Source: an alpha proteobacterium AAP38 (GTDB lineage: Bacteria; Pseudomonadota; Alphaproteobacteria; Azospirillales; Azospirillaceae). From it: DNA of 64,000 bases. Positions 4,567-34,766 of this stretch are shown here, in pieces. Each line of letters opens with the position of its first letter. The first letter of the stretch is position 1. The position numbers were made by a program, and so were the translations under genes. The notes under the pieces were generated by a model. The model was not told the origin of the DNA and did no database searches. It saw only the letters and a program-made list of their open reading frames with translations. The stretch spans positions 124,001-188,000 of the forward strand of contig LJHR01000026.1 in the NCBI GenBank assembly GCA_001296005.1. The letters run 5' to 3'.

Positions 4567-5196
4567 ATGACAGATGCCAACACCCCCCTGATCGAAACCC
4601 TGTTCGCAACCCGCCTCTACCGCGCCGAACTGGACGGGATGGAGACGCTGAACGATGAACTGGCTGCCTGCTGCCGGTCGGCGGCAGAGGATGATATAGC
4701 CGGCCAGAAATGGTCCGCCAAGAATGGCTATACGGGCTATACCTCCTATTCATCCCTGGATGATTTGCCCTGGCGTTTCCCGGCGGTGAAGGTTCTGAAA
4801 TCGCATCTGGATCGGCATGCCAAGGCCTTTGCCAAGGTGCAGGAATGGCAGCTGGGCGACAAGAAGCTGGAACTGGACAGCCTCTGGATCAATGTCCTGG
4901 ATCCCGGTGGCTTCCACGGCTCCCACATCCATCCCAACAGCGTGATCAGCGGTACCTACTACGTCGACATCCCCGACGGTGCCTCCTCCATCCGGTTTGA
5001 AGATCCGCGTCTGGCCCTGATGATGGCCACCCCGCCGCGCAAGCCGAAGGCGGCGCGCGACCTGCTGCCCAGCATTCCCGTAGCGCCCAAGGCGGGCACC
5101 CTGTTGATGTGGGAAAGCTGGCTGCGGCATGAGGTGGTGCTGAACCAGGCGGAGAGCGAGCGGATATCGATCAGCTTCAACTACGCCTGGCGCTGA
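4567..5196 (+). CDS. Putative 2OG-Fe(II) oxygenase (TIGR02466-like)
   Basis: 209 residues from ATG 4567. It contains the cupin-like signature of the small 2OG-Fe(II) oxygenase family (Pfam 2OG-FeII_Oxy_5). The proximal motif is HGSHIHPNSVISGTYYV. The distal His (LRHEV) and the Arg/Ser motif (ERISISFNY) near the C terminus would bind iron and 2-oxoglutarate. Substrate is unknown for the family. The gene converges with the giant FlmG-like gene; the two overlap by 20 bases at their 3' ends. No strong ribosome site is visible. The in-frame TTG at 4558 is a less likely start. Confidence 0.8.
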   Translation: MTDANTPLIETLFATRLYRAELDGMETLNDELAACCRSAAEDDIAGQKWSAKNGYTGYTSYSSLDDLPWRFPAVKVLKSHLDRHAKAFAKVQEWQLGDKKLELDSLWINVLDPGGFHGSHIHPNSVISGTYYVDIPDGASSIRFEDPRLALMMATPPRKPKAARDLLPSIPVAPKAGTLLMWESWLRHEVVLNQAESERISISFNYAWR

Positions 5197-8100
5197 TCAG
5201 CAGGCGCGCGGCCTCGGTCAGGGCCGCCGCCATGCCCGACCGGCTGTCCAGCCGCCGCATGCTGGGAAACCATGGGCGCACCACCGTGCCCAGCCCGGTC
5301 CAATCCGCCCGCCCCAGGCGCCAGACAGGCACGCCCAGCGCACCCGCCAGTTCCCCCACCGCCGTCGGTACCGTGATGACAAGGTCAAGCGCGGTGATCA
5401 ACGCTGCCTGACCTTCCAGATCATCATTGAGGTCCAGATCGTCAAAGCGGGTGATGGGCACACCGCCCCGTTCCACCTCCCCCGGTTCCAGGCCGCGTTG
5501 CAACCCGATCAGGGTCACACCGGGAATGGCGGCCAGCGGGGCAAAGTCGGACAGGCTGGCATAGGAACGGCGCCGCTCCGTCGTCATCATGCTGGACCGC
5601 CAGCAGATGCCGATCTTCAATTCCGGCCCCAGCGTGGCCAGCCGGTCACGCCACACCGCCACCAGATCGGGCCGGGCCGTCAGATAGGCATGGGGTGACA
5701 GATCACTCAGATGGGACCAGAGATGGCCCGCCACATCCCCCGCCGCAACCGCAAGATCGGCATCGCGCGGGTCGGGCGTTGCGGGCCGGATAGTGGCCTG
5801 GGGGAAGGCACGAGCCAACAGACCCGTCAGCCGCCGGTCCCCCTCGATAACCAGATGGCCGCAACGGGCGGCCAAGGCCGGGTACAGTGCCGCGAACATC
5901 AACTGATCGCCCAGACCCTGTTCGCCCCAGACCAGCAGCCGGCGGTCCGCGATGTCGGACCCGTCCCAAATGGGCAGCGAGACATGGCGGCCACGGATGG
6001 TCTGCGTCCCCCGGAACCGCATGGCATAGCCCTTCCACCCGGCCTCCAGCGCTCCCTCGGTCAGGTCCAGAAGGCCACGGTTATAAAGCGCGGTGGGCAA
6101 CCCCGGCATTGCGGCCAGGGCCTGGTCATAGTCATGACGGGCGGCGGCGGGATCGCCCGCCATCTCCGCCACCCGGCCCAGATTGTTCCAAGCCTCGCCA
6201 TTACCGGGGTCAAGGCGCAGCGCCTCCTGCAACGCCGCGCGGGCCGGAACCAGTTGCCCCCGCTGGCGCAGAACATCCCCTAATCCTGCATGCAGATGCG
6301 TGTCCGCCCCGCCCAACGACAGGGCCATTCGATACTCGCCCTCCGCCGCGTCCAGCCGGTCCAGGTCCTTCAGCACCGCCGCCAGATTGCCATGGGCAAT
6401 GGCGGACCCCTTGTCCATGCCGATGGCGCGGCCATGCGCCTTGACCGCATCCTCCAGCCGGCCCAGCGCGCGCAGGGCATTACCCAGATTGGTCCAGGTG
6501 CCGGGATCAAGGGGACGCAGGGCAAGCGCCTTGCGATATGCCCCTTCCGCTTCGGCGGGTTGATCCAGGGTCTGGTAAAGGTTGCCCAGATTGACCCAGG
6601 CCGCCGTGTAATCCGGCGCTGCTGCCACGGCGCGCATCATGAAGGGCAAACCATCAGCAGGCAGACCTGTCTGCTGTAGGGCCAGACCCAGCAGGTGCAG
6701 GGCCACCGGCACTTCCCCGTCCCGTGCGATGACGCCACGGTAGAATGGCATGGCACCGGCGGGATCACCCGCCTTCTGCCGTTCGATACCGCGCTCTAAC
6801 CAGGTGGACGGATCACCATCGGGACCATCCGGTGGCAACAAGGCCGTCAGGGCCGCAATCACCGCCGGCACCTGCGATGCCATAGGGGCCATGGGTGCGG
6901 GTGTGAAAACCCGCATACTGGCGAACCAGGGCCGCACAGCGGTACCCAGCCTTGTCCAATCCAGCGGCCCCGAAAGGCGCCAGACCGGCACGCCCACGGC
7001 ACCCGCCATTTCCCCCACCGCCGTGGCCACCGTGATAACCAGATCCAGCTGTGCCGTCAGGGCCAGGGCCGTTTCCAGATCATCACGCAGATCGACCCCG
7101 TCCCAGTGGTGGATATGCACGCCATGGGCTGCCTCCACCGCTGAAATCTCCTCCGCTGCCCCGTCATATTGCAGGGAGACGACCTGGATACCGCTCATCC
7201 GCAGCAGGGGCAGCCAGTCGGACAAGTCCGTATAGGCCGCCTCCCGCGCGGCTGTGCGCAACTGGCTGCGCCAGCACAGGCCGATGCGCAGTCCTGGCGG
7301 CAGGGCCGCCAGCCTGTCGCGCCACAGCAGGGTCAGGTTGGGGCGCGGCGACAGAAACGCTGCCCCACCCCAACCCGCGATATCAGGGGCCAGAAGCAGG
7401 GGCAGGCTGCCCGCCGGCACCTGGCAATCCACCGCCACCGCCGTTCCTTCAGCCATCACCGTGGCAAACGGAAAGGCCCGCGCCAGGATCGGCACCAGCC
7501 GTGGATCGGTCCAGAGGGTGACAGAGCCACCCAGCCCCGACAGAGGTCCGTAATGGGCCGCCATCATCACCTGATCGCCCAGCCCCTGTTCCCCCCAGAC
7601 CAGCAGACGCCGGCCCGACAGGGGCGTTCCGTCCCAGCGGGGAACGGATGGTGGGCCGCCCCAGGCCACCTCCCCACTGTCAAACCGCGCCTCATGCCGG
7701 GTCCAACCGGCCTTCAGGTCTCCCTGCCCCAGGGCCAGCAGCGCGTCGTTATAGAGCGCGCGGGCAAAGCCGGGCCGGATGGCGAGGGCACGGGACAGAG
7801 CCGTACGGGCACCCGGCACATCGCCCCGACCCACCATGTCCATCGACAGGTTGACCGCCGCCTCGGCATAGGTCGGGTCGATGGACAGGGCCTTTTCCTG
7901 CGCCTGCCGCCCCCCCGCCGCATCCCCCAGCGCCGTCCGGCACAGGCCCAGTTCGCCCCACGCGTCCGGCATGTCCGGGGCACGGGACAAGGCCTTCTCC
8001 TGGCATTCCGCTGCCTCCCGCCACCGCCCCAGATGGCGTAGCGCCACGCCCAGATTGACCAGGGCGCGGGGATAGTCTGGCCGTTGCGCGAGCGCACGGC

Positions 8101-11100
8101 GGCTGGCCTTCTCCGCATCGGCATAACGGCGCAGTTCGACCAGCGTCGCGCCCAGATTGGACCAGGCTTCTGCATGGTCGGCACGGCGGGACAGGGTCTG
8201 CCGGAACGCCTTCTCCGCCTCCGCGAACCGGCCCAGCGCCTTCAGAAGGCTGCCACGTGTGTTGTGGGCATTGGCATAATCCGGGTCCAGGGCCAGGGCA
8301 CGGTCGACCAGGGGCAGCGCGTCCGCCGCACGACCACCCTGCAACAGCACCTGCGACAGCAGATGCAGGGCATCCACCTCATCGGGCTGTGCCCGCAGGA
8401 CGGCGCGGTATCCCTGTTCCGCCGCCACCAGATCACCCTGGCGGTGCAGCTCTAACACAGCTTCCGTTGTTGGCGGCGCCAGCGGCAGGGTCGGGGCTTG
8501 CAACAGCCGGGTCAATTCCCGCAGCATGGCGGGCACGGCCTGACCCACCGGATGTGCCATGAACAGCCGCATCGCGGGGTACCAGGGCCGCACCGCCGTG
8601 CCCAGCGCCGACCAGTCGGGCCTGTTCTGGAACCGCCAGACCGGCAAGCCCAGCGCTGCCGCCATTTCCCCGACCGCCGTGGGTGCGCAGATCACCAGAT
8701 CAAGCCCGGCCATCAGGGCCGCCGCCCCCTCCAGATCATCCTTCAGGTCGATATCGGGGCATTGATGGACCGTGACATCCCTTGCATCGCGCAATGCCGC
8801 GATCTCCGTCCCTGCCCCGTCATATTGCAGGCTGACCGGCACGATGCCGGGCAGGGTCAGCAGCGGCAGCAGGTCGGCCAGGGACAGATAGGCCTGTTTA
8901 CGATCCCCATCCTGCCGCTGCGAGCGCCAGCAGAAACCGACACGCAGGCCGGGCGGCAGACTGTCCAGCCAGGACGCCTGATGCTGCACACGCGCAGGGT
9001 CGGGCTTCATCCAGCCCGTTGCCTGTCTCCCGAAACCGCGCAGATCGGGGCGCAGAATGGCGGGCAGATCACCCAGCGGACAATGGAAATCCGCATCGCG
9101 CGGATCGGGTGTTTCGGCCCGTGCCACGACCCCCGGAAAGGACCGGGACAGAAGGCCCGTCAGGCGCCTGTCACACTCGACAATCACCTGAATGCCGGCG
9201 GCGCGCAGGTCGGCGATTAGGCCCGCCCACAGGATTTCATCCCCCAGCCCCTGTTCGCGCCAGACCAACAGGCACTTGCCGGTGATATCCTGGCCCCGCC
9301 ATTCCGGCATCGCCAGCCGGCGCACCGGACTGGCCTGACCGGCGGCGAAACGGGCGCGGTAATCGGCCCATCCGTCCGCCAAATCCCCCCGCGACAGCCG
9401 CAGATGCGAACGGTTCCAGCGGGCCAGCGCATCGCCTGGATGCTGCACCAGCAACCGGTCCAGCAGGGCCAGCGCCTCCCCCTCACGCCCCTGGATCTCC
9501 CGGATACGGGACAGGTCAGTGATGGCGGGCGGGTAGTCAGGCACCAGGGCCAGCGCCTTGTCCAGTGCCGCCTCCGCCCCTCTCGCATCACCGTTACGGA
9601 ACAGGGCATAGGCAAGACCCGTCCAGGCCTCCACCTGATCAGGCGACAGATCCAGCGCAGTGCGGAAGGCCGCCGCTGCCTCGGCAAAGCGATAGCCGGC
9701 GCGCAGGGCTCCACCCAGGTTGATCCAGCCGGAAACCAGAGCCGGGTCTGCCGTCACCGCGTCGCGATGGGCGGCGGCGGCGGCGTCATATTGTTCGCGC
9801 GCCTGCCGGATCAGGCCCAGCGTGTCATGGGCATGCGGGGAGGGGCCGGGGCCGGACAGCAGCGGTGCCAGTTCGGCCTCCGCCGCGTCCAGCTGACCCA
9901 AATCCAGCAGGCAGCGCGCGATATTGACGATGGTGACCGCATGGCCGGGCCGAAGCGCCAACGACTGCCGATACCGGTCGCACGCCGCCGCCGCTTGGTC
10001 CCCCGCCCGCAACGCACCGCCCAAGCGGGCCAGCAGCAGGGCATCGCCGGGCCGCAACCGCGCCGCCCGCTCCAGCAGCGGCACCGCCTCCCCGGCCTTT
10101 CCCTGCTGCATCAGGGCATGGCCCCGACGATGCAGATCTTCCGCATCCTCCGTTCCCGCACCCTGATGCATAAGGGCGGTCAGGTCGCGGGCGATATCGG
10201 ACAGCAGCGACGCAAAACCCGCCCCGGCCTGCCTTGTGTAGCAGCGCATGGTGGCATACCAGGGCCGGACAGCAGTGCCCAGCCGCGTCCATTCATCCTC
10301 GCCACCGATGCGCCAGACTGGCACGCCTAGCGCGCCCGACAATTCCGACACCGCCGTCCCCGCGCTGATGACAAGGTCCAGCGCGGCGGTCAGTGCGGCC
10401 ACCCCGTCCAGGTCATCACGCAGATCGATATCAGGGCGGAACAGGTTGATCCCATCCGGCAGGGCGGCCTTCATTTCCACCAATGTCGCCGGGTCATCCA
10501 GATCATATTGCAGCGGCACCCAGCGGATACCCGGCAGCGCGAACAAGGGCGCGAAGTCGCTCACGCTTGGATAAAGCCCCGCCCGCTCCCCCGATTTCAA
10601 ACCACTGCGCCAGCAGAAGCCGACATTCAGCGCCGGGCCTTGGGCGTCCAATACACGGCGCCAGTGGTCGGTCCCGGCCCCGTCAGACAGCAGCCAGGGC
10701 TGCCCCGGAAACCGGGCCAGCACCGGTCGCGCCATGCGCGGCAGGCTGCCGGCGGCAATCTGCAAATCCGCGCTGGGGGTCGCCCCCGTCGCCGCCACCG
10801 ACAGATGCGCAAAGGACCGGGCGAACAGGGGCACCAGCCGCACATCGCATTCCACGGTCACCGGACCGTCAAGCCCCTTCAGGTCCGGGAAGATGCTGGA
10901 AAACAGGATCTCATCCCCCAGCCCCTGTTCCGGCCAGATCAGCAGATGCTTGCCCGCCAGCATGTCGCCCTGCCAGAACGGGATATCCAGTTCCCGCCGG
11001 GGCTGACGCAGGCGGGCACGGAACCGTTCCTCATAATCGGCCCAGCCCGGTTCCAGCCGCCCGTGAACCAGATGGTCCAGCGCCAGATTGAACCGCGCCA

Positions 11101-11749
11101 CCGGCTGATCGCGGTCCAACTCCAACGCCCGCTGGAAACAGGGCACCGCCGCGTCGGTCATCCCCTTGCGGCGCAGAAGCGTGCCCAGATTGGCATGGGC
11201 CACGGCCAGATCGGGGTTCAGCGACAGGGCCTTGCGCTGACACTGCTCCGCCTCCCCAAACCGGCCCAGCTCCAGCAGGGCAACACCCCGGTTGGACCAG
11301 GCATCGGCCCGCGTCGGCGCCATGGCCAGCGCCTGCCGCGCCGCCTTCTCCGCCTCCGCCGGCTGATTCAGGTCCAGCAACACGGCGGCAAGGTTGGATT
11401 GTGCATCCACAAGGTCTGGCTTGGCGGCCAGCGCCGCGCGAAACGCCCGCTCGGCGGCACGGAATTGCCGCACCGCCATCAGCATGCCGCCCAGATTATT
11501 CTGGATCGCGGGCGATTTGGGCGCCGCCTCCGCCGCCGCCATCACGCGGTGCAAGCCCTCCTCTGCCTCGCCCGCCTGCCACAGGGCTAGACCCAGCAGG
11601 TGCCCGGCATCGACATTGCGCGGCCATCTTGTCAGAATTTGCCGGTACAGGGCCATGGCCCCGGCCAGATCACCCTGCTGATGGCGGGCAATGGCAGCAT
11701 CCAGCAGACGGTCGGGCGAGTCGGTCGGGGGCGGTGGCTTGCGGTCCAT
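5177..11749 (-). CDS. Giant FlmG-like protein with four tandem TPR + glycosyltransferase modules
   Basis: 2190 residues, ~556-residue period repeated four times. Each module has a run of 34-residue TPR repeats, then a W-x-G-x-x-L...LLIWPEQGLGDE segment, then a Rossmann-like C-terminal lobe ending in TAVGELAGALGVPVWR and a TRLGTAVRPWY tail. The EQGLGD motifs fall near residues 274, 832, 1388 and 1943. TPR plus this GT-B-like domain is the architecture of Caulobacter FlmG, the soluble transferase that binds flagellin through TPRs and transfers pseudaminic acid. FlmG has one such module; this protein has four. It is cytoplasmic (no signal peptide) and is divergent from pseB, separated by a 165-bp shared promoter region. 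By context it would glycosylate flagellin or other flagellar proteins; the acceptor is inferred. Confidence 0.8.
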   Translation of the reverse strand: MDRKPPPPTDSPDRLLDAAIARHQQGDLAGAMALYRQILTRWPRNVDAGHLLGLALWQAGEAEEGLHRVMAAAEAAPKSPAIQNNLGGMLMAVRQFRAAERAFRAALAAKPDLVDAQSNLAAVLLDLNQPAEAEKAARQALAMAPTRADAWSNRGVALLELGRFGEAEQCQRKALSLNPDLAVAHANLGTLLRRKGMTDAAVPCFQRALELDRDQPVARFNLALDHLVHGRLEPGWADYEERFRARLRQPRRELDIPFWQGDMLAGKHLLIWPEQGLGDEILFSSIFPDLKGLDGPVTVECDVRLVPLFARSFAHLSVAATGATPSADLQIAAGSLPRMARPVLARFPGQPWLLSDGAGTDHWRRVLDAQGPALNVGFCWRSGLKSGERAGLYPSVSDFAPLFALPGIRWVPLQYDLDDPATLVEMKAALPDGINLFRPDIDLRDDLDGVAALTAALDLVISAGTAVSELSGALGVPVWRIGGEDEWTRLGTAVRPWYATMRCYTRQAGAGFASLLSDIARDLTALMHQGAGTEDAEDLHRRGHALMQQGKAGEAVPLLERAARLRPGDALLLARLGGALRAGDQAAAACDRYRQSLALRPGHAVTIVNIARCLLDLGQLDAAEAELAPLLSGPGPSPHAHDTLGLIRQAREQYDAAAAAHRDAVTADPALVSGWINLGGALRAGYRFAEAAAAFRTALDLSPDQVEAWTGLAYALFRNGDARGAEAALDKALALVPDYPPAITDLSRIREIQGREGEALALLDRLLVQHPGDALARWNRSHLRLSRGDLADGWADYRARFAAGQASPVRRLAMPEWRGQDITGKCLLVWREQGLGDEILWAGLIADLRAAGIQVIVECDRRLTGLLSRSFPGVVARAETPDPRDADFHCPLGDLPAILRPDLRGFGRQATGWMKPDPARVQHQASWLDSLPPGLRVGFCWRSQRQDGDRKQAYLSLADLLPLLTLPGIVPVSLQYDGAGTEIAALRDARDVTVHQCPDIDLKDDLEGAAALMAGLDLVICAPTAVGEMAAALGLPVWRFQNRPDWSALGTAVRPWYPAMRLFMAHPVGQAVPAMLRELTRLLQAPTLPLAPPTTEAVLELHRQGDLVAAEQGYRAVLRAQPDEVDALHLLSQVLLQGGRAADALPLVDRALALDPDYANAHNTRGSLLKALGRFAEAEKAFRQTLSRRADHAEAWSNLGATLVELRRYADAEKASRRALAQRPDYPRALVNLGVALRHLGRWREAAECQEKALSRAPDMPDAWGELGLCRTALGDAAGGRQAQEKALSIDPTYAEAAVNLSMDMVGRGDVPGARTALSRALAIRPGFARALYNDALLALGQGDLKAGWTRHEARFDSGEVAWGGPPSVPRWDGTPLSGRRLLVWGEQGLGDQVMMAAHYGPLSGLGGSVTLWTDPRLVPILARAFPFATVMAEGTAVAVDCQVPAGSLPLLLAPDIAGWGGAAFLSPRPNLTLLWRDRLAALPPGLRIGLCWRSQLRTAAREAAYTDLSDWLPLLRMSGIQVVSLQYDGAAEEISAVEAAHGVHIHHWDGVDLRDDLETALALTAQLDLVITVATAVGEMAGAVGVPVWRLSGPLDWTRLGTAVRPWFASMRVFTPAPMAPMASQVPAVIAALTALLPPDGPDGDPSTWLERGIERQKAGDPAGAMPFYRGVIARDGEVPVALHLLGLALQQTGLPADGLPFMMRAVAAAPDYTAAWVNLGNLYQTLDQPAEAEGAYRKALALRPLDPGTWTNLGNALRALGRLEDAVKAHGRAIGMDKGSAIAHGNLAAVLKDLDRLDAAEGEYRMALSLGGADTHLHAGLGDVLRQRGQLVPARAALQEALRLDPGNGEAWNNLGRVAEMAGDPAAARHDYDQALAAMPGLPTALYNRGLLDLTEGALEAGWKGYAMRFRGTQTIRGRHVSLPIWDGSDIADRRLLVWGEQGLGDQLMFAALYPALAARCGHLVIEGDRRLTGLLARAFPQATIRPATPDPRDADLAVAAGDVAGHLWSHLSDLSPHAYLTARPDLVAVWRDRLATLGPELKIGICWRSSMMTTERRRSYASLSDFAPLAAIPGVTLIGLQRGLEPGEVERGGVPITRFDDLDLNDDLEGQAALITALDLVITVPTAVGELAGALGVPVWRLGRADWTGLGTVVRPWFPSMRRLDSRSGMAAALTEAARLLISARRS

Positions 11750-11914
11750 TTCCGGTCCGTCTGGGGCGGGATGCGGCTACCTTAGCCCAAGCACATCGCC
11801 GCATCCAACAAGCTTGGGATGAGGTGAAAGCCTCAATCTGCGGAAATACTTAACCCTGCCCGCCAAACTGGCTAGCATGTATGTCCCGCCCGCCCGTCAG
11901 CGAACCGGATTGAG

Positions 11915-12940
11915 ATGAGCACAGAGCCCACCCGCGCCCCCGCCCTGTTCAAGGGCGCGTCCGTCCTGATCACTGGCGGCACCGGTTCCTTTGGCCGGCA
12001 ATTCACGCGTTTCCTGCTGAAACACGGCAAGCCGCGCCGGCTGGTCATCTTCTCGCGCGATGAATTCAAGCAGTATGAGATGCAGCAGCAATTCGCGGAC
12101 ATGGATAACCGCGACGTCCTGCGCTTCTTCATCGGCGATGTCCGCGATCAGCAGCGCCTGTCCATGGCGATGCGGGAAATTGATTTTTGCATCCACGCCG
12201 CCGCCCTGAAGCATGTGCCCACCGCCGAATACAATCCCATCGAATGTATCCGCACCAATGTGAACGGTGCGGAGAACGTGGTGCAGGCGGCGCTGGCCAA
12301 CAAGGTGAAGAAGGTGGTGGCGCTGTCCACCGACAAGGCGGCCAGCCCTGTAAACCTTTATGGTGCGTCCAAGCTGGCGTCCGACAAGATTTTCGTGGCG
12401 GCCAACAACCTGTCCGGCTCCGTCGGCACCCGCTTTGCCGCCGTGCGCTATGGCAATGTCGTGGGCTCGCGCGGGTCGGTGGTGCCCTTCTTCCGCAAGC
12501 TGATTGAGGATGGGGCGAAGGAACTGCCCATCACCGACGACCGCATGACCCGGTTCTGGATCACTTTGAACAAGGGCGTGGATTTCGTCGCCACCTCCTT
12601 TGCCATGATGCAGGGGGGCGAGATTTTCGTGCCCAAGATCCCCTCCATGCGCATCGTCGATCTGGCCCACACCATGGCCCCGACCCTGCCCCACCGCATT
12701 GTCGGCATCCGGCCCGGTGAAAAGCTGCACGAGATCATGATCACCGAGGATGACGCGCGGCAGACGGTGGAACTACCCGACCGCTACATCATCGAACCCG
12801 CCTTCAAATGGTGGGATCGCGGCCCTTATGCCAAGCAGGGGGCGACGCCTGTCCCCGATGGTTTCAGCTATCGCAGCGACACCAATCCCGAATGGCTGTC
12901 AGAGGATGCGATGCGCGCCCTGCTGGAGCGGTCTTCGTGA
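11915..12940 (+). CDS. pseB: PseB: UDP-GlcNAc 4,6-dehydratase (5-inverting)
   Basis: 341 residues, first enzyme of pseudaminic acid synthesis (FlmA in Caulobacter). It is an extended SDR with the NAD(P)-binding GGTGSFG near residue 20. The catalytic segment is STDKAASPVNLYGASKLASD, with the Asp-Lys pair and the YxxxK typical of inverting dehydratases such as PseB. AALKHVPTAEYNP, also a family hallmark, lies between. It is the first gene of the long plus-strand run. Its stop overlaps the GTG start of pseC. The retaining dehydratases of bacillosamine/legionaminic pathways are longer membrane proteins, so this points to a Pse-type sugar. Confidence 0.93.
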   Translation: MSTEPTRAPALFKGASVLITGGTGSFGRQFTRFLLKHGKPRRLVIFSRDEFKQYEMQQQFADMDNRDVLRFFIGDVRDQQRLSMAMREIDFCIHAAALKHVPTAEYNPIECIRTNVNGAENVVQAALANKVKKVVALSTDKAASPVNLYGASKLASDKIFVAANNLSGSVGTRFAAVRYGNVVGSRGSVVPFFRKLIEDGAKELPITDDRMTRFWITLNKGVDFVATSFAMMQGGEIFVPKIPSMRIVDLAHTMAPTLPHRIVGIRPGEKLHEIMITEDDARQTVELPDRYIIEPAFKWWDRGPYAKQGATPVPDGFSYRSDTNPEWLSEDAMRALLERSS

Positions 12941-14154
12941 GCAAGGGTCCCTTTCTGCCCTATGGGCGGCAATGGATTGACGAGGCCGACATCGCCGCCG
13001 TGGAACAGGTGCTTCGCGGCGACTGGCTGACCCAAGGGCCCAGCATCGGCTGGTTTGAGCGGTCCTTTGCGGAGAAGGTGGGGGCACGCCATGCCATCGC
13101 CTGCGCCAATGCCACAGCCGCCCTGCATATCTGCATGCTGGCGCTCGACCTGGAACCGGGCGACGCCGTCCTGGTGCCCAGCGTCACCTTCCTGGCCACC
13201 GCCAATGCCGTACGCTATGTCGGCGCGCAGGTGGCCTTCACCGATGTCGATCCCGATACCGGCCTGATGCGCCGCCAGGACGCGGAGGACGCGATCGCAC
13301 GGGCGGAGGCCAGGGGCTGGCGCGTGCGGGCCATCGCGCCCGTGCATCTGGCCGGACAGACAGCGGATATGGAAGGCCTATCGGCGCTCGCCACCGAACG
13401 CGGCCTGACCATGGTGGAGGATGCGGCCCATGCCGTCGGCACCCGCCTGACCGGGGCCGATGGGGGCATGGTCGCGGTGGGTGCCTGCGACCGCTCAAGC
13501 CTGGCCTGCTTCTCCTTCCACCCCGTCAAGACCATGGCGACGGGTGAAGGCGGCATGGTCACCACCAATGATGACGCGCTGGCAAAGCGCGTCCGCGCTG
13601 GCGTGTCCCACGGCATGGCGCGCGACCCGGACGGGTTCACTAACCCAACCGCCGCCCTGGCCGCCGATGGCAAGCCCAATCCCTGGTATTATGAGATGCC
13701 GGAACCCGGCTTCAATTACCGGATGACTGATATCCAGGCGGCTTTGGGCATCAGCCAGTTGGCAAAGCTGGATGCCTTTGTGCGCACCCGCGCCAAACTG
13801 GTCGCGACCTATGACACGGCGCTCTCCCCGCTGGCCCCGATCCTGACGCCATCGGCCCGCATGCCGGGCGTGGCAGCGGGCTGGCATCTCTATGTCGCAC
13901 TGATCGATTTCGCAGCGCTCGGCATGGACCGGGCCGCCTTCATGGCCGCCCTTCGCCAGGATGGCGTGGGCAGTCAGGTCCATTACATCCCCGTCCATAC
14001 CCAGCCCTATTACCGGCGTCTTTATGGTGATCTGCATCTGCCGGGGGCTGCGGGCTGGTATGATCGCTGCCTGTCCCTGCCGCTTTATCCCGCCATGTCC
14101 ATGGCCGATCAGGATCGGGTCGTGGACGCTCTGACGCGTATCATCAAGGGGTAA
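12937..14154 (+). CDS. pseC: PseC: UDP-4-amino-4,6-dideoxy-L-AltNAc transaminase
   Basis: 405-residue PLP aminotransferase of the DegT/DnrJ/EryC1 family, the second pseudaminate enzyme (FlmB). The start is GTG 12937, which overlaps the pseB stop (GTGA) and gives the typical PFLPYGRQWIDEADI start. GDWLTQGPSIGWFE and the PLP lysine in SFHPVKTMATGEGG (about residue 198) are as expected. The N terminus from an upstream ATG would be encoded antiparallel to family logic inside pseB, so it is rejected. Confidence 0.93.
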   Translation: MSKGPFLPYGRQWIDEADIAAVEQVLRGDWLTQGPSIGWFERSFAEKVGARHAIACANATAALHICMLALDLEPGDAVLVPSVTFLATANAVRYVGAQVAFTDVDPDTGLMRRQDAEDAIARAEARGWRVRAIAPVHLAGQTADMEGLSALATERGLTMVEDAAHAVGTRLTGADGGMVAVGACDRSSLACFSFHPVKTMATGEGGMVTTNDDALAKRVRAGVSHGMARDPDGFTNPTAALAADGKPNPWYYEMPEPGFNYRMTDIQAALGISQLAKLDAFVRTRAKLVATYDTALSPLAPILTPSARMPGVAAGWHLYVALIDFAALGMDRAAFMAALRQDGVGSQVHYIPVHTQPYYRRLYGDLHLPGAAGWYDRCLSLPLYPAMSMADQDRVVDALTRIIKG

Positions 14155-14158
14155 TCCC

Positions 14159-14923
14159 ATGCCCGCCATCATCAATCCCATGGACCTGTCGGACCGCCAT
14201 ATCCTGGTCACGGGTGCCTCTGCCGGTATCGGTCGCGCCACGGCCATCCTGGCGGCAAAGCTGGGGGCGCGCGTCACCATTACGGGCCGCGATCAGGGCC
14301 GGCTGGCCGCCACCCTGGCCGAACTGCCCGGCGACGGGCACCGCGCCGACAGTTTCGACCTGTCCGCCATCGACGCCATCCCCGCCTGGATGAAGGCGGC
14401 GGCACAGGCCAATGGCCCCTTCGACGGTCTGGCCCATTGCGCCGGTATCCAGACCTTGCGCCCCATCCGCATCTTCCAGGCTGATTTCTTTGACGTTGTG
14501 ATGCGGACCAACCTGGGCGCCTCGCTGGCGCTGGCTAAGGGTTTGCGGCAAAAGGGAGTGAAGGCGGACAAAGCCAGCCTTGTCTATATCTCCTCCACCG
14601 CCGCCACCGCGTCGTCGCCTGCCAATGTCGTCTATGCGGCGGCCAAGGGCGGCATCATCGCCGCCACCAAGGGCCTGTCGGCGGAACTGCTGCCCGATGC
14701 CATCCGTGTCAATTGCGTGGTGCCCAGCATCGTAATGACCGAACTGATCGAACGCGGCTTTGAAAAGCTGAATGCCGATCAGATCGCGCATCTGGAAAGG
14801 TTGCAGCCGCTGGGTTTCGGCCATCCCGACGATGTCGCCAACGCCATCTGTTTTTTGATCTCGGATGCGGGCCGCTGGATCACCGGCACCTCCATGGTGG
14901 TGGATGGGGGCCGCACGGCATGA
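14159..14923 (+). CDS. SDR-family oxidoreductase in the nonulosonate operon
   Basis: 254-residue classical short-chain dehydrogenase. It has the TGASAGIG cofactor loop near residue 20, an AHCAGI motif, the catalytic Ser in VYISST, the YAAAK catalytic pair and a C-terminal TGTSMVVDGG. It starts four bases after pseC and overlaps the next gene by four bases. PseB, PseC, PseH, PseG and PseI need no SDR, so this is an extra step, perhaps reducing or oxidising the sugar or an acyl group. Substrate unknown. Confidence 0.85.
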   Translation: MPAIINPMDLSDRHILVTGASAGIGRATAILAAKLGARVTITGRDQGRLAATLAELPGDGHRADSFDLSAIDAIPAWMKAAAQANGPFDGLAHCAGIQTLRPIRIFQADFFDVVMRTNLGASLALAKGLRQKGVKADKASLVYISSTAATASSPANVVYAAAKGGIIAATKGLSAELLPDAIRVNCVVPSIVMTELIERGFEKLNADQIAHLERLQPLGFGHPDDVANAICFLISDAGRWITGTSMVVDGGRTA

Positions 14924-15405
14924 GCGGGTGGGTGCTGCTGGCCCATGGTGATGATCTGGCGGCGCATGGCTGCTGGGCCACGGGCTGGATCGGCGCCATT
15001 CCGGTGCTGGTGCGCAATTTCAACGGCACCCTGCGCGGCTTCCGCAATGTCTGTTCACACCGCTTCGCCCTGATGCTGACGGAACCCACCGGCAAGGGTC
15101 CGCTCCGCTGCCCCTATCACGCCTGGGTCTATGATCAGGATGGGGTGCCAAAGGCCATTCCCTTCAATGACAGCGATTTTCACCTGGACGATGCCGCGCG
15201 CCGCGCCCTGGCCCTGCCCGCTATCGGCGTAGCCATGGCCGGCGGTCTGGTCTTCGCGCATCTGGACCCGAATGCGGACAGTGCTGTCCCCGCCGACTGG
15301 ACGGCGGACAATGGCACGGAACGCACCCTGCCTGACGGTTCCGTGATCGGTCCTGGCTCCGCCATCCTGTACCGGTCCTCTGCCCGGCGGGAGGGGGCAT
15401 GCTGA
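14920..15405 (+). CDS. Rieske-domain half of a split Rieske oxygenase
   Basis: 161 residues containing a complete Rieske [2Fe-2S] domain: CSHRF (Cys45, His47) and CPYHAW (Cys64, His67). The order is that of ring-hydroxylating oxygenase alpha subunits, but the protein ends before the catalytic iron domain. The next gene, overlapping by seven bases, supplies that domain. Together they look like one oxygenase divided into two polypeptides. Alternatives are a stand-alone Rieske ferredoxin or a decayed fused gene. Both frames are clean and coupled, which argues against simple decay. Confidence 0.8.
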   Translation: MSGWVLLAHGDDLAAHGCWATGWIGAIPVLVRNFNGTLRGFRNVCSHRFALMLTEPTGKGPLRCPYHAWVYDQDGVPKAIPFNDSDFHLDDAARRALALPAIGVAMAGGLVFAHLDPNADSAVPADWTADNGTERTLPDGSVIGPGSAILYRSSARREGAC

Positions 15406-16277
15406 ACTACGATAATCCCCCACCCCGCCGGCGGTTGCTGGCCTCCCGCTGGTTCCACGATCCTTCGGCCTTCGCCACCGAACAGACGGCCCTGTCCACC
15501 CGCCTGCCCTGGCGCTTTGCCGGGCTGGCCCATGAAGGGGGTACGGGCGACGCCGCCTGTGGTGGCTTCCTGTTCCGCCGCCAGACGCACGATGTCCCAC
15601 CGCTGACCGACTGGCTTGGCCCCCTGGCCGACCGTCTGTCGCTGCTCTCCACCGCACTCGACAGTCCGGTGGCCAGCGACAGCACTGAATTTGCCGCCAA
15701 CTGGAAAATCCTGGTGGAAAACACCCTGGATGATTTCCACGGCTCCACCGTCCATCCGCAGACCATTCACCCCGCCGTCGATGCCGATTGGCGCCGCCAT
15801 CTGCATACCGACCGTTTCGGCCCGCACAGCCGCTCGCAATGGAAACTGTCGGACCCGACGGCGGCTTGGTGGGACAAGCTGGTCACGCGCGGGCACCTGC
15901 GTCGTTTCGCGACACAAGACCTTTACGACCATTGCTTCATCTTCCCCGATCTTTATGTCGCCAGCTTCCATGGCACCATGGTCATCGTCCACCGTGTCGT
16001 GCCGCTGGCCGTGGACCGGACCCGCCTGGAATGGCGGACTTTCCTGCCCGCCGCGTCCGATGATGCCAAGGCCGCCAGCTTCCGGCGCGGCCTTGTCTCC
16101 ATGCTGGCGGCGTCGGCCCGGCAGGTGATCGATGAGGACCGCCCCTTGTGCGAACAGGTGCAGCAGGCGCGCATCGCCGCCACCGGCCCCGGCATCCTGG
16201 GCTGGCGTGAACAACGCATCGGCTATGTGCATGCGGCGCTGTCCGCCCTGCTGCCGACAGACGGGACCGCCCCATGA
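15399..16277 (+). CDS. Catalytic-domain half of a split Rieske oxygenase
   Basis: 292 residues with the catalytic fold of Rieske non-heme iron oxygenases. The ligand motif is NWKILVENTLDDFHGSTVHP, starting at Asn101 and giving Asp111/112, His114 and His119 as bridging and iron-binding residues. A DEDRPLCEQVQ stretch near residue 250 is the usual late conserved region. The first ~35 residues (WFHDPSAFATEQ) resemble the N terminus of full-length family members, yet no Rieske Cys-His motif follows. The [2Fe-2S] centre must come from the preceding protein or the third Rieske gene. Stop overlaps the GNAT start (ATGA). Confidence 0.8.
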   Translation: MLNYDNPPPRRRLLASRWFHDPSAFATEQTALSTRLPWRFAGLAHEGGTGDAACGGFLFRRQTHDVPPLTDWLGPLADRLSLLSTALDSPVASDSTEFAANWKILVENTLDDFHGSTVHPQTIHPAVDADWRRHLHTDRFGPHSRSQWKLSDPTAAWWDKLVTRGHLRRFATQDLYDHCFIFPDLYVASFHGTMVIVHRVVPLAVDRTRLEWRTFLPAASDDAKAASFRRGLVSMLAASARQVIDEDRPLCEQVQQARIAATGPGILGWREQRIGYVHAALSALLPTDGTAP

Positions 16278-16840
16278 CCAGCGCCCTGACCTTCCGCCTG
16301 CCCACGCCCGATGACGCCGAATTGCTGCTGACCTGGCGGCGCCTGCCCGAAATCGCCGAACAATCCTTCAGCGAGGTCCCCGACGATATCGACCGGCAGC
16401 GCGCCTGGATCGACCGCTCCAACGCCCGCACCGACTATGTCCACCGCATCATTCAGGTCGATGGCATCGATGTCGGCTATGGCAGCGTCACCATCACCCA
16501 CGCCGATTGGAAGATCGGCACCATCGGCGTCTATATGGGGGATCGGCGGGGCCGCACCGGCATCGGTGCGCTCAACTTCGCGCCCATGCTGAACCATTGC
16601 TTCCACACGCTGGGCCTGCGCAAGCTGGTCAATCAGGTGTTTTCCAGCAATGAACGTGTGCTGAAGGGGCAAACCATGCTGGGCTACCGCCATGTCGGTG
16701 TCCTGCGCGACCACGCCCTGAAAAACGGCGAACCACGCGACGTCCATCTGTTCGAAATGCGGGCCGCCGACTGGGCCGCCGTGCGCCACCGCTTCGGCCT
16801 GTTTCAGGACATGGACGGGCAGGTCGTGGGAGAGGTGTAA
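16274..16840 (+). CDS. pseH: GNAT N-acyltransferase, PseH-like
   Basis: 188 residues with the RimJ/RimL-type GNAT layout: LTWRRLPEIAEQSF start, then IGVYMGDRRGRTGIG, the acetyl-CoA-binding beta4-alpha3 region, then LRKLVNQVFSSNERVLK and MLGYRHVGVLRDH. This matches PseH, which acylates the 4-amino group of the PseC product. In this operon it would be the enzyme that attaches an acyl group, acetyl or the product of the downstream ACP cassette. Which donor it uses cannot be told from sequence. A 257-bp gap follows. Confidence 0.82.
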   Translation: MTSALTFRLPTPDDAELLLTWRRLPEIAEQSFSEVPDDIDRQRAWIDRSNARTDYVHRIIQVDGIDVGYGSVTITHADWKIGTIGVYMGDRRGRTGIGALNFAPMLNHCFHTLGLRKLVNQVFSSNERVLKGQTMLGYRHVGVLRDHALKNGEPRDVHLFEMRAADWAAVRHRFGLFQDMDGQVVGEV

Positions 16841-16906
16841 ATTGCCCCAAAGCCTTCTTTCTGATATGCTCCTTCCCATCGACGCCCGATTTGCGCCCAC
16901 CCCAAA

Positions 16907-16925
16907 CCAAAGCCATCGGCTTTGG
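16907..16925 (+). terminator. Hairpin in the gap between pseH-like and the third Rieske gene
   Basis: CCAAAGCC, three-base loop, GGCTTTGG: an 8-bp perfect stem 66 bases after the GNAT stop. No T-run. The surrounding gap (16841-17097) is less GC-rich than its flanks and contains no gene I can support. The hairpin may be an attenuator separating two parts of the operon; a new promoter may lie in the rest of the gap. Confidence 0.4.
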
Positions 16926-17097
16926 GTATGGGAAAGCCGTAAGCGGTGAAACACCCCCTTATTTTCTGTTTCAACCCGTTGCACGAACCGCCAGATTTCG
17001 GAGAAATCCGCAATCGGAGCCGATAAGATCCAAACTCCGAAACAGCAAATTTTCCCCGTTGCGCAACGCCCCCCAAACCTGACCGCAGGCTTCCCCG

Positions 17098-18204
17098 ATG
17101 CTGGCCCACGCCGCCGCCCTGACCGCCGCCGAATACCGTGACGCGGATCGATACCGGGCCGAACAGCAGTCCCTGTTCGCCAATGCCTGGCAGTTCGTGG
17201 GCTTCACGGATGAGGTGGCGGAACCCGGTTCCTGGCTGGTGCGGCAGATCGCGGGCCAGTCGGTCCTTATCCAGGATTTCGACGGCGAGGTGCGGGCCTT
17301 GCGCAATGTCTGTTCCCACCGCTTCGCACAGTTGCGGGCGGGAGAGGCTGGCACGGCCAGTGGCCCGCTCCGCTGCCCCTATCATGGCTGGACCTATGAC
17401 CGCGACGGGGTACCCGTCGGCATCCCCGGCAATGCCGATTGTTTCGGTCTGGACAGGGCGGACAAGCAGGCCCTGGCCCTGCCCCGCTATGAACTGGACC
17501 GCATCGGCCGTTTCTTGTTCGTGCGGCTGCTCCCCGGCGGGCCGTCCCTGCTGGACAGCGTGGGTCCGCATACCGACCTATTGATGGCTCTCTCGGATGG
17601 CATGTCCGCTCCCTTCGCGCAGGCGGCACAGCCCTGGGACGCCAACTGGAAGGTCGGGATCGAAAATGTGCTGGAGGTTTATCACGTCGATGCCGTCCAT
17701 GCTGAAAGCTTCCGCGCCGTCGTGGACGGTTCCTGGCGCGTGGTGCCGTCTGGTCCTCACTCCATCGGCTATGCCGGCATCCGGGCAGAGGCGCAGCGCT
17801 GGTGGGAAGGCGCTGGCAAACGCCTGGGCCTGATCCCCGTCGATGCTGTGGCCGGGGTGGAGGGCTATGTCCACCTGCTGCTGTTCCCCAACCTCGCCAT
17901 CGGCATCACGGCGGGACGGATGATGAGCGTGCAGACGCTGGAGCCAACGGGACCGGAAAGCTTCACCCTGCGCTATCGCCTGTGTCTGGCCAAGGCCAGG
18001 GACGGGGCCAGCAAGGCGGCCCTGGCCGCCGTCACCACCCATCTGGCGGCCTTGAATGAAAAGCTGCTGTCGGAGGATAGGGCCGTCTGCGCCGCGGTGG
18101 GTGCCGGCCTGCGCCATGTCGAAGGGGCAGCCCTGCTGGGCGCGAACGAGGACCGCATCCGTCATTTCCATGCCACGATCCAGACCCTATCTAAGGCGGA
18201 TTGA
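17098..18204 (+). CDS. Complete Rieske non-heme iron oxygenase
   Basis: 368 residues with both domains: Rieske CSHRF and CPYHGW in the first third, then NWKVGIENVLEVYHVDAVH with the iron ligands, and a late DRAVCAAVGAG region. Family members hydroxylate or demethylate using electrons from a separate reductase; no reductase or ferredoxin gene is nearby. Vertebrate CMP-Neu5Ac hydroxylase is also a Rieske protein, so a role in hydroxylating a nonulosonic acid acyl group is an attractive inference but not a family assignment. It is homologous to the split pair just upstream. Confidence 0.85.
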   Translation: MLAHAAALTAAEYRDADRYRAEQQSLFANAWQFVGFTDEVAEPGSWLVRQIAGQSVLIQDFDGEVRALRNVCSHRFAQLRAGEAGTASGPLRCPYHGWTYDRDGVPVGIPGNADCFGLDRADKQALALPRYELDRIGRFLFVRLLPGGPSLLDSVGPHTDLLMALSDGMSAPFAQAAQPWDANWKVGIENVLEVYHVDAVHAESFRAVVDGSWRVVPSGPHSIGYAGIRAEAQRWWEGAGKRLGLIPVDAVAGVEGYVHLLLFPNLAIGITAGRMMSVQTLEPTGPESFTLRYRLCLAKARDGASKAALAAVTTHLAALNEKLLSEDRAVCAAVGAGLRHVEGAALLGANEDRIRHFHATIQTLSKAD

Positions 18205-18223
18205 ACGCCATTCGGACTTTGAG

Positions 18224-19222
18224 ATGACCCATCGTGACGACCCGGCCCTGATGGCCGCCGCCGACCTTCTGCGGATTGAGGCCAAGGCCGTGCTGGCCCA
18301 GTTGGACAGCCTGGACGCCGATTTCCTGGCGACCGTCAGCCATATTGCCAGCGGGGCCGGCAATACGCTGGTGGCGGGCGTAGGCAAATCCGGCCTGATC
18401 GCGCGGCTGCTCTCGTCCAAACTGGCGTCGGTGGGGGCGCAGGCCTTCTATTATTCGGCGCTGGACGCCCTGCACGGCGAACTGGGCGCGCTGCGCGAAG
18501 GCGACCTGGTCATCCTGCTGTCCAACAGCGGCCAGACCCAGGAACTGATCGACCTGGGCAAGGTGGCGGTCCGGCGCGGGGTGAAGGTGGCGGCCGTGGT
18601 ATCGCGCGTGCCGTCGGGCCTGTCGCGGATCGCGGACTGGACCCTGCGCTGCCATGTGGAACGGGAAGCGACGGAAACCAAGCTGCCGACCGCCAGCACC
18701 ACCGCCATGCTGGCCCTGGCCGATGCGCTGGTCGTGGCCGTCGCCAGCCGGCGCGGCTTCACCATCGCCGACTATGGCGACAACCATCCCGGTGGCACGC
18801 TGGGCATCGTGCTGGCCGGGAAGGTCCGTGACCTGATGGTGACGGCGCCCGAACAGGTGGCCCTGGTCACGGGCGAACAGCCGATCTTCGAAACGCTGCT
18901 GGCCATGACCCGCTTCCCCAACGGTGCCGCCCTGGTGGTGGATGGGGCGGGCCGGCTGACCGGCATCGTGACCGAAGGCGACATCCGCCGTGGCCTTGCC
19001 GCCCATGGCAAAACCTTCCTGGAACGGGATACGGGTGCCTGCATGACCTCGCCCGTGCGCCGCACCTGCGGCCCCGATGCCACGGCGCTGGAGGCACTCG
19101 AAATCATGGAAACACCGCACCAGATCAATGTCTTGCCGGTGGTGGACGGTGACGGTTCCCCGCTTGGTCTGCTGCGTTTGCACGATATTGCGGGGCTGGA
19201 GGTTGAAAAATCGCTGGGTTGA
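18224..19222 (+). CDS. kpsF: KpsF/GutQ-family sugar-phosphate isomerase (SIS + two CBS)
   Basis: 332 residues from ATG 18224 (GAG just ahead). The SIS domain (VAGVGKSGLIARLLSSKLAS at about residue 44, LLSNSGQTQEL) is followed by two CBS domains near residues 205-330 (TEGDIRRGLAAHG). The layout equals D-arabinose-5-phosphate isomerases, which feed Kdo synthesis. Here it sits inside a nonulosonate operon, so it may supply or isomerise a sugar phosphate for the surface glycan. It may also be a biosynthetic duplicate of the housekeeping KdsD. Upstream in-frame codons lie within the Rieske gene. Confidence 0.85.
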   Translation: MTHRDDPALMAAADLLRIEAKAVLAQLDSLDADFLATVSHIASGAGNTLVAGVGKSGLIARLLSSKLASVGAQAFYYSALDALHGELGALREGDLVILLSNSGQTQELIDLGKVAVRRGVKVAAVVSRVPSGLSRIADWTLRCHVEREATETKLPTASTTAMLALADALVVAVASRRGFTIADYGDNHPGGTLGIVLAGKVRDLMVTAPEQVALVTGEQPIFETLLAMTRFPNGAALVVDGAGRLTGIVTEGDIRRGLAAHGKTFLERDTGACMTSPVRRTCGPDATALEALEIMETPHQINVLPVVDGDGSPLGLLRLHDIAGLEVEKSLG

Positions 19223-19283
19223 CCGGCGGATTTCTGCCTAATGTCGTACAAGGATATGTTGTGGAAACAAGAAGGGCAGTCCG

Positions 19284-19640
19284 GTGAAGGAGATGCGCAC
19301 CCTGGGCTTCACGGAACGTGAGGCGACCCAGGCCATCATCGATCTGATGCGCAAGCAACGGCTGGAACTGCCGGTCGGCCAGGTTGTGGGCCTGGAGCTG
19401 CATGAGGACCCGGTCGCGGCTGAATTGATCATCGAGGACGATGACGGTAAGCGCACGATGGTACCCCGCAACGCCGCAGAACTAGCGGCGTCTTTGGTCA
19501 ATTACTGTATCAATCGGAAGATTCGCCTGCCCTCCATGTCGAACAAGTTTGTGGAGGTCATTGCCGGCTCGCTGAACCTCATCATCTATCTGGATAACGT
19601 GGACAGTCCGGCGACAAAGAAAATGACGCGGCGGGCCTGA
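19284..19640 (+). CDS. Conserved-looking hypothetical protein
   Basis: 118 residues starting at GTG 19284. I do not recognise a family. An N-terminal helix-rich part (FTEREATQAIIDLMRKQ) and an acidic middle (IIEDDDGKRT) are visible; there are no cysteines or membrane segments fit for a known function. It lies between kpsF and pseI in the same direction, 61 bases after kpsF. Codon use looks like its neighbours, so it is probably real and cotranscribed. An in-frame ATG at 19293 is an equally possible start. Confidence 0.65.
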   Translation: MKEMRTLGFTEREATQAIIDLMRKQRLELPVGQVVGLELHEDPVAAELIIEDDDGKRTMVPRNAAELAASLVNYCINRKIRLPSMSNKFVEVIAGSLNLIIYLDNVDSPATKKMTRRA

Positions 19641-19682
19641 TCTCACCGGCCCGCTTCCTCTCTGACCTTCCACGATGCTACC

Positions 19683-20762
19683 ATGGGACCTTCGCTTTCC
19701 CATCCGGCATCAGGCATGACCCGTTTTCCCGACCGATTCCAGCCCGGCCAGCGGCCTTTCCTGATTGCGGAAATGTCGGGCAACCATAATGGCGATATCA
19801 ACCGCGCCCGCCGCCTGATCGACGCGGCGCGCGATGCCGGTGCCGATGCCGTCAAGATCCAGACCTACACCGCCGACACCATCACCATGGATGTCGACCG
19901 CCCGGAATTCCGGCTGGAAGGCGGATTGTGGGCCGGCAAGACATTGTATGAGCTGTATCAGGAGGCGCACACCCCCTGGGAATGGCACGCGGCCCTGTTC
20001 GACCATGCGCGGGACACCGGCATCGCCCTGTTCAGCAGTCCGTTCGATCCCACGGCCATCGACCTTCTGGAAAGCCTGAATACACCCGCCTACAAGATCG
20101 CCAGCTTTGAACTCATCGACCTGCCTTTGATCCGAAAGGCCGCCGCCACGGGCAAGCCGCTGATCATGTCGACAGGAATGGCCTCCTTGGGGGAAATTGC
20201 GGAGGCTGTGGCGGCAGCGCGGGAGGCCGGCAACGACAATATCGCCCTTCTCCACTGCGTCTCGGGCTATCCGACGCCGGTGGAGGATTGCGACTTGGCG
20301 ACCATCCCGCATATGGCCCAGGCCTTTGGTTTGCCCGTCGGCCTGTCGGATCACACGATGGGTGTGGCGGTTCCGGTCGCGGCAGTGGCTTTGGGCGCGG
20401 TCATCATCGAAAAGCATTTCACCCTGGCCCGCGCCGATGGCGGCCCGGACTGCGCCTTTTCCCTGGAACCGGCGGAGTTCAAGGCCATGGCAGAGGCCTG
20501 CCGCGTGGCCCATGCCGCCCTGGGCAACATCTCCTATGCCCTGAAACCATCCGAAGCGGGCGGGCGGACCTTCCGCCGCTCCCTCTATGTCAGCCGCGAC
20601 GTGCCGGCGGGAACGGTGTTGACGGATGCCGATGTCCGCTCCATCCGCCCCGGCCTGGGTCTGGCGCCCAAGCACCTTCCCGACGTCCTGGGCCGGACTG
20701 CCGCCCGCGACCTGACGCGGGGGGAACCGGTGGATTGGACCATGCTGGGCAAGGCCCCCTGA
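19683..20762 (+). CDS. pseI: PseI: pseudaminic acid synthase (NeuB family)
   Basis: 359 residues (348 if ATG 19716 is used; neither has a strong ribosome site). It condenses the free 2,4-diacylamido sugar with phosphoenolpyruvate to give the nine-carbon acid. The FLIAEMSGNHNGD motif, KIQTYTADTITMD, the metal-binding HCVSGYP and GLSDHTMG segments and a C-terminal SAF (antifreeze-like) domain from about residue 290 identify a NeuB/PseI enzyme. MSGNHN rather than IGINHNG favours PseI over NeuB/LegI. Stop and next start share bases (TGATG). Confidence 0.92.
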   Translation: MGPSLSHPASGMTRFPDRFQPGQRPFLIAEMSGNHNGDINRARRLIDAARDAGADAVKIQTYTADTITMDVDRPEFRLEGGLWAGKTLYELYQEAHTPWEWHAALFDHARDTGIALFSSPFDPTAIDLLESLNTPAYKIASFELIDLPLIRKAAATGKPLIMSTGMASLGEIAEAVAAAREAGNDNIALLHCVSGYPTPVEDCDLATIPHMAQAFGLPVGLSDHTMGVAVPVAAVALGAVIIEKHFTLARADGGPDCAFSLEPAEFKAMAEACRVAHAALGNISYALKPSEAGGRTFRRSLYVSRDVPAGTVLTDADVRSIRPGLGLAPKHLPDVLGRTAARDLTRGEPVDWTMLGKAP

Positions 20763-28563: not shown

Positions 28564-28570
28564 AGTGTCT

Positions 28571-28607
28571 CTCCTTTGGAGGTATGATTTACCCGAATTT
28601 TTCGGGT
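28571..28607 (-). promoter_or_regulatory. Flagellin mRNA leader hairpins, one covering the ribosome site
   Basis: In the minus-strand RNA, ACCCGAA-AAA-TTCGGGT (28591-28607) forms a 7-bp hairpin. Eight bases before the start region, CTCC-AAA-GGAG (28571-28581) pairs the Shine-Dalgarno GGAG with CTCC just upstream. FlbT is known in Caulobacter to act on a flagellin leader, so these are candidate FlbT targets; that link is inferred. Confidence 0.55.
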
Positions 28608-28648
28608 TAAGTGCAGGGAACACCTATTTCGGGGAGGAGTCAAGCCGT

Positions 28649-32878: not shown

Positions 32879-32879
32879 G

Positions 32880-34748: not shown

Positions 34749-34766
34749 GGTCTATCCCTCCAGGGG

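Follow-up and report, generated by a model that had tools for sequence, protein, structure and literature searches.

FlmG of Caulobacter crescentus, the closest described counterpart of the protein analysed here, is a chain of 596 aa with an N-terminal TPR part and a C-terminal GT-B part, from a bacterium without Maf according to the cited portion of its description (PMC7591256). The FlmG type is also defined by a TPR domain that binds flagellin and is required for flagellin modification; one module per chain is what has been described for FlmG and is not known to be essential to the type. In Azospirillum brasilense, the polar flagellin has been recognised as a glycoprotein since 1995, its 65 kDa chain running at 100 kDa, and the cited portions of the papers concerned name no transferase for it (PMC8100600, PMC12826043, PMC3958885). 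The flagellin glycan of strain Sp7 is given there as a rhamnose/fucose/galactose/GlcNAc repeat, not pseudaminic acid (PMC8100600, PMC3958885), and the Azospirillum flagellin glycan as a repeating tetrasaccharide (PMC3958885).

The protein described here is ordinary in its parts and unusual in its assembly. It is encoded in a window of 64,000 nucleotides that forms part of contig C19 of a 5.78 Mb genome. The open-access literature, covered mostly at the title and abstract level and with preprints and most subscription papers outside the search, yielded no description of a TPR flagellin glycosyltransferase with many modules.

A chain of four constrained modules

The gene starts with an ATG at 11749 and encodes a product of 2190 aa and 235 kDa. 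The original prediction had an open reading frame of 2190 residues at 5177-11749, which stood; the strand, absent from it, is now fixed as minus. Four tandem modules had also been proposed, each with a TPR run and a C-terminal donor motif, and this is the arrangement that we observe: TPRs come before each EQGLGD motif and a donor-like motif, TAVxE(L/M)xxALGxPVWR, after it. The EQGLGD motifs lie at residues 274, 832, 1387 and 1943 (spacing 558/555/556), the third having been put at 1388 before, and the TPRs are recognised by Pfam TPR_2 with an E-value of 1.4e-87. The gene and its parts are as follows:

5177-11749, minus strand: whole gene, four TPR + GT-B modules, 2190 aa (open reading frame, motifs, Pfam, orthologues, dN/dS)
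11099-11749, minus strand: module 1 TPR part, about residues 1-217 (Pfam TPR; omega 0.099)
10160-11098, minus strand: module 1 GT part, residues 218-530, EQGLGD at 10913-10930 (motif, conserved columns)
9425-10129, minus strand: module 2 TPR part, about residues 541-775 (Pfam TPR; dN/dS)
8474-9424, minus strand: module 2 GT part, residues 776-1092, EQGLGD at 9239-9256 (motif, trees; absent from three-module species)
7760-8455, minus strand: module 3 TPR part, about residues 1099-1330 (Pfam TPR; dN/dS; two-module model)
6830-7759, minus strand: module 3 GT part, residues 1331-1640, EQGLGD at 7574-7591 (motif; two-module model)
6092-6799, minus strand: module 4 TPR part, about residues 1651-1886, with modelled TPR-like helices to about 1912 (AlphaFold model)
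5186-6091, minus strand: module 4 GT part, residues 1887-2188, EQGLGD at 5906-5923 (motif; AlphaFold model)

A plus-strand reading of 5177-11749 is ruled out, as stops are present. Since BLAST of the protein against itself returned only the trivial full-length match, the modules were compared pairwise, one with another. Their GT parts are 43-48% identical (mean 46%) and their TPR parts 32-43% (mean 36%), so that the modules are not a chance repeat; the greater divergence of the TPR parts would leave room for different docking surfaces. The same four-module open reading frame recurs in the independent Niveispirillum assemblies G001, G006, G007 and G009 and is therefore not an assembly artefact; the G003 copy is interrupted by a contig end and that of G005 is spread over two contigs.

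At the 54 columns conserved in at least 93% of 257 modules, modules 1-4 of the window deviate at only 2, 3, 3 and 1 positions, none of them within the EQGLGD, E or W/R motifs. Across four module groups of 9, 7, 9 and 8 sequences, 41 of the 42 columns that are invariant inside each group are identical in all four. Whole-gene dN/dS is 0.16 against G006 (0.18 and 0.14 for the other pairs), and values of 0.04-0.25 per domain indicate purifying selection on all eight TPR and GT domains. Overall, the four modules are complete, conserved and constrained, and the idea that the gene might be silent, raised earlier as a point that could count against the prediction, is argued against mainly by dN/dS. 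A consensus scan of the region before the gene found no promoter, and a sigma-54-like pattern was no commoner than chance (40 against 35.2 expected). The sequence TTGG[AT]T-18-TAAGGT stands before the gene and occurs upstream only in five close species/genomes, being absent from L050, L053, L054, L112 and L126.

Structure prediction, suggested earlier as a check, gave an AlphaFold model of module 4 (pLDDT 94.5, pTM 0.89) in which 16 TPR-like helices (8 pairs) are followed by a GT-B-like domain. Foldseek against the PDB returned SPINDLY (E 3.7e-17) and O-GlcNAc transferase (OGT; E 5.9e-15) as the best matches, both TPR protein O-glycosyltransferases of class GT41, with modest TM-scores of 0.26-0.46 for the top OGT/SPINDLY rows. 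VIA-align gave a Z of 22.0 over 400 residues to 7ntf_B at an rmsd of 18; its list consists of TPR proteins and OGT and is by itself little informative on the GT part, and the absence of other GT-B families from it proves nothing. The model of modules 3 and 4 together (m3f2168c2518c; pLDDT 91, pTM 0.53) folds well, with an uncertain mutual arrangement of the heads. A profile of the GT part had no match among PDB sequences at E of 10 or less, and the stretches matched by phmmer cover the TPR parts. Pfam Glyco_transf_9 is marginal for the whole protein (22.7 bits against a cut-off of 22) and weak at module level, where 4 of 10 members match with a best E of 0.027, and PF01973 (Maf) is absent from the Pfam families found in the protein. 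Every module has the TPR plus GT-B architecture described for FlmG in the cited portion of its source (PMC7591256), which agrees with the FlmG-like label of the original prediction.

Flagellar and nonulosonic-acid surroundings

The gene context is flagellar and pseudaminic, in support of the FlmG-like proposal, and the neighbours that matter to the argument are:

11750-11914, no strand: intergenic region between the gene and the pseudaminic operon that diverges from it (TTGG[AT]T-18-TAAGGT ahead of the gene)
11915-21505, plus strand: nonulosonic (pseudaminic-type) operon, divergent from the gene (PseB, PseC and PseI score above their NCBIfam cut-offs)
26659-28623, minus strand: large flagellin of about 634 aa, proposed acceptor, centre 28% Ser/Thr
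28649-30124, minus strand: small TPR-GT of subtype A, directly upstream of the flagellin gene (motif table, subtype tree)
30956-33013, minus strand: small TPR-GT of subtype A with a DTAVIHL motif (motif table, subtype tree)
40012-42003, minus strand: single-module relative of the same GT subtype (B) as the giant protein, 663 aa (subtype tree)

The operon comprises genes for PseB, PseC, an SDR, a Rieske protein, a ring-hydroxylase, a GNAT, a Rieske oxygenase, a SIS-CBS protein, an unknown protein, PseI and a cytidylyltransferase, and no PseG was recognised in it. Its KdsD-like and KdsB-like genes (18056-21505, plus strand) score below their NCBIfam cut-offs which, together with the lack of a recognised PseG, raises the possibility of a sugar that differs from ordinary pseudaminic acid. 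Loci were counted for chains with at least three modules and at least 1600 aa, giving 21 in Azospirillum and 10 in Niveispirillum/Nitrospirillum, with L103 and L113 (1313-1318 aa) excluded as split two-module chains. By this count, the Pse operon (PseB) diverges from the giant gene in 9 of the 10 Niveispirillum/Nitrospirillum loci, the tenth lying at a contig end. Within the operon, 14920-18204 (plus strand) is the part that encodes the Rieske protein, the ring-hydroxylase and the Rieske oxygenase. A linked Rieske ring-hydroxylase gene is found in all four- and five-module genomes, is absent in G010 and lies elsewhere in G002; within Niveispirillum, it goes with the presence of module 2, a lead only, as it reflects one loss in two sister species.

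Two other features of the region are recorded here in their own right. A TfuA-YcaO pair adjoins a Crp-type regulator inside the flagellar region (33999-36005, minus strand), with TfuA and Crp homologues in the same region of G002 (L052). The hook protein FlgE (44351-47662, minus strand) is very large, with 1103 aa and 23% Ser/Thr, and is a possible glycosylation target.

The three small paralogues mentioned in the original prediction do exist, all on the minus strand, and only the third (40012-42003) shares the GT subtype of the giant protein. Subtype A is marked by DTxxxHLxxALxxP, LQKG and PDWRW, marks that the 2190-aa protein does not carry by motif table or tree, and its 16 rows all fall on one side of a branch with support 100/99. 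In subtype B, the donor-site D-T-x-x-x-H of subtype A reads x-T-A-V-x-E, with E in 256 of 257 modules, and D and H are missing throughout, also in flagellin-adjacent single modules. Such single subtype B modules lie next to flagellin genes in further families of the Alphaproteobacteria (L138, L141, L143, L146, L147). The genome holds many further TPR-GT genes, two of them near the flagellin gene. Three-module chains of subtype A are present at L134 (5825-10798), L135 (2920-7902) and L144 (3718-9717), with no recognised flagellin gene nearby in the stretches examined. Their membership in subtype A implies that module fusion happened more than once.

Module number, large flagellin and Maf across the family

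Named relatives of the modules are in Niveispirillum, Azospirillum and Nitrospirillum, those in Niveispirillum being the nearest, which makes the host a member of this genus of soil and water bacteria or a very close neighbour of it within Azospirillaceae. Of the 40 genomes searched as relatives, 16 match the protein at E of 1e-60 or less. Counted with an HMM, the chains have four modules in Niveispirillum G001, G006, G007 and G009, three in G002 and G010, and five in Nitrospirillum, where they measure 2829-2888 aa and one (L126) is on a complete chromosome; Azospirillum carries a three-module chain of about 2000 aa adjoining a convergent two-module gene of about 1200 aa. The contrast drawn earlier between many modules and the one of FlmG holds for this protein; however, it is a family trait with two to five heads and occurs separately in the other subtype as well.

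The tree of the modules, also suggested earlier, resolves them as positional orthologues. Module 1 groups with module 1 of the three-module species (support 100/99), module 3 with their second module (100/98) and module 4 with their third (100/99), so that module 2 is the one that three-module Niveispirillum are without. Ties to Nitrospirillum are weaker, joining module 1 to m2 (93/93) and module 2 to m3 (93/97). In the Azospirillum three-module chain, heads 1 and 2 are 60-78% identical in the GT part and in some cases pair within species in the trees; to judge by sequence, they look like recent duplicates and suggest repeated heads of like function.

In a class-wide sample, 67 of 190 genomes match at E of 1e-25 or less and, among the matches listed, those outside Azospirillaceae are for the most part single modules, about 500-760 aa long. 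An unfused counterpart of the many-headed chain is seen in G136, where five separate single-module TPR-GT genes stand in a row and are followed by a TPR-sulfotransferase (L133, 7779-16420). G184 has three consecutive separate module genes, and in G212 a two-module chain is flanked by PseI, PseC and PseB.

The flagellin gene lies about 15 kb from the giant gene in Niveispirillum and does not adjoin it. Of the 21 three-module loci of Azospirillum, 18 have a large flagellin, 53-63% identical to that of the window, immediately upstream and in the same orientation (in fragments at L086 and L094), and the remaining three are at contig ends. From its size of 627-660 aa, compared with the 65 kDa polar chain, this flagellin is probably the polar one. 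Across the 79 family genomes, the module clade is present in 60 and a large flagellin in 59, with agreement in 78 and G093 as the exception; clade presence was defined by a best E of 1e-100 or less, so that the 19 genomes counted as lacking it comprise 12 unmatched at 1e-50 and 7 with weaker matches of 1e-52 to 1e-61 (G014, G015, G016, G041, G045, G048, G052), and G020 was counted as positive on E-value, as a putative multi-module case. Full-length Maf, taken as an open reading frame of at least 645 aa, is found in 6 of the 19 clade-negative genomes and in none of the 60 clade-positive ones. Short, weak PF01973 matches over the Pfam cut-off (263-451 aa) occur in G003, G009, G044, G051 and G058, so that 5 of the 60 clade genomes have some PF01973 match when these are counted, and the window's own genome (G000) has none. 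Flagellins and Maf proteins were tallied by eye, and these patterns ignore kinship, Azospirillum (g12) alone supplying 42 of the 79 genomes.

In Niveispirillum, the giant protein is missing from two genomes, G004 and G008. Each of them encodes a Maf of 700-707 aa on the same contig as its best PseI match (C46 and C42, respectively), and the flagellins found in them have at most 544 aa. This suggests that in these genomes one flagellin glycosyltransferase was replaced by another.

Proposed function and comparison with known systems

With a probability of roughly 0.6, we favour reading the protein as an FlmG-like O-glycosyltransferase that acts in the cytoplasm on the large (polar-type) flagellin, with several heads working in parallel and using one kind of donor; the reaction, the identities of donor and acceptor and the parallel mode are what we infer. 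Each module would be one complete enzyme, whose TPR superhelix would hold the flagellin chain before export and whose GT-B domain would attach a nonulosonic (pseudaminic-type) sugar, supplied by the divergent operon, to Ser/Thr residues of the central flagellin region. A chain with four such heads and a separate docking surface on each could then decorate several sites of one bound flagellin fast and in parallel. Processive glycosylation and four acceptor specificities, both suggested in the original prediction, are conjectural. The fold of module 4, the gene context, the agreement between clade and flagellin, the exclusion of Maf, the single subtype B modules beside flagellin genes, the constraint, the shared core and the like heads 1 and 2 of Azospirillum speak for this reading; the GT part without a sequence relative among solved structures (E of 10 or less), its marginal GT9 match, the modest TM-scores, the co-occurrence counts that ignore kinship, the distance of about 15 kb to the flagellin gene and the other TPR-GT genes that could serve speak against it. 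In Azospirillum, the rhamnose/fucose/galactose/GlcNAc glycan argues against a purely pseudaminic modification.

Modules could also work in series, with different donors or acceptors, to build one oligosaccharide on flagellin, the heads then corresponding to added sugars. Such an assembly line would explain why ancient positional orthologues are kept apart at 43-48% identity, why the loss of module 2 in two three-module Niveispirillum accompanies a ring-hydroxylase that is absent (G010) or unlinked (G002), and why the Azospirillum glycan is a repeating tetrasaccharide (PMC3958885). We nevertheless consider it unlikely: parallel heads with one donor kind fit better than a four-step line because the core is the same in 41 of 42 columns and because the module number varies from three to five beside the same pathway. 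Heads 1 and 2 of Azospirillum also look like recent duplicates, and the module 2 link is a single loss in two sister species.

Somewhat less credible again is a chain in which one or two heads are catalytic and the others are glycan- or flagellin-binding pseudo-enzymes serving as scaffold or export chaperone. The replacement of D-T-x-x-x-H by x-T-A-V-x-E, with its nearly universal E, means that nucleotide-sugar binding is not to be assumed; but D and H are missing from the subtype as a whole, also from single modules that adjoin flagellin genes, and their loss is therefore not decay here, the deviations at conserved columns are few and spare the EQGLGD, E and W/R motifs, and dN/dS shows all modules constrained alike. 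A link to flagellin by location only, with the hook protein, another Ser/Thr-rich protein or a polysaccharide as the real target, strikes us as improbable. The hook protein is unusually large and Ser/Thr-rich, the genome has many TPR-GT genes, and some many-module TPR-GTs elsewhere are not near flagellin genes; these last (L134, L135, L144), however, are of subtype A, whereas subtype B is found next to flagellin or Pse genes repeatedly, in several families, and excludes Maf.

Beyond the favoured parallel-head reading, a wider proposal may be put forward tentatively, and we hold it to be doubtful: one flagellin chain would be held by successive TPR superhelices and decorated at sites of fixed number and order, with a head number (two to five) that is evolvable, that arose by repeated fusion of tandem single-module genes and that replaces Maf in Azospirillaceae. 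If true, the fused head number would be an evolvable setting of filament glycosylation. The multi-module family is a concrete candidate for the transferase that glycosylates the Azospirillum polar flagellin, as it sits right behind that flagellin-type gene, and the chains of two to five heads, the five-gene arrays in another family and the exclusion of Maf form a natural experiment on the counting of glycosylation sites under TPR guidance.

Compared with known systems, the protein has a weak Pfam match of marginal score to the GT9 heptosyltransferase fold (PF01075) and differs from it in its TPR arrays and many modules per chain. It shares a TPR superhelix followed by a GT-B domain with OGT and SPINDLY, which carry out protein O-glycosylation, and departs from their single catalytic domain per chain with several GT domains that are shorter and, as a profile against PDB sequences, match none at E of 10 or less. 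The proposed role, cytoplasmic flagellin O-glycosylation with nonulosonic acids, is that of Maf (PF01973), an unrelated family whose full-length members occur only where the module clade is missing. With FlmG, by its published description, it shares the order of TPR and GT-B in each module, a genome with PseB, PseC and PseI and no Maf, and a subtype found beside flagellin genes; it is set apart from the single module of about 600 aa in FlmG by four modules in 2190 aa, and by two to five in its relatives.
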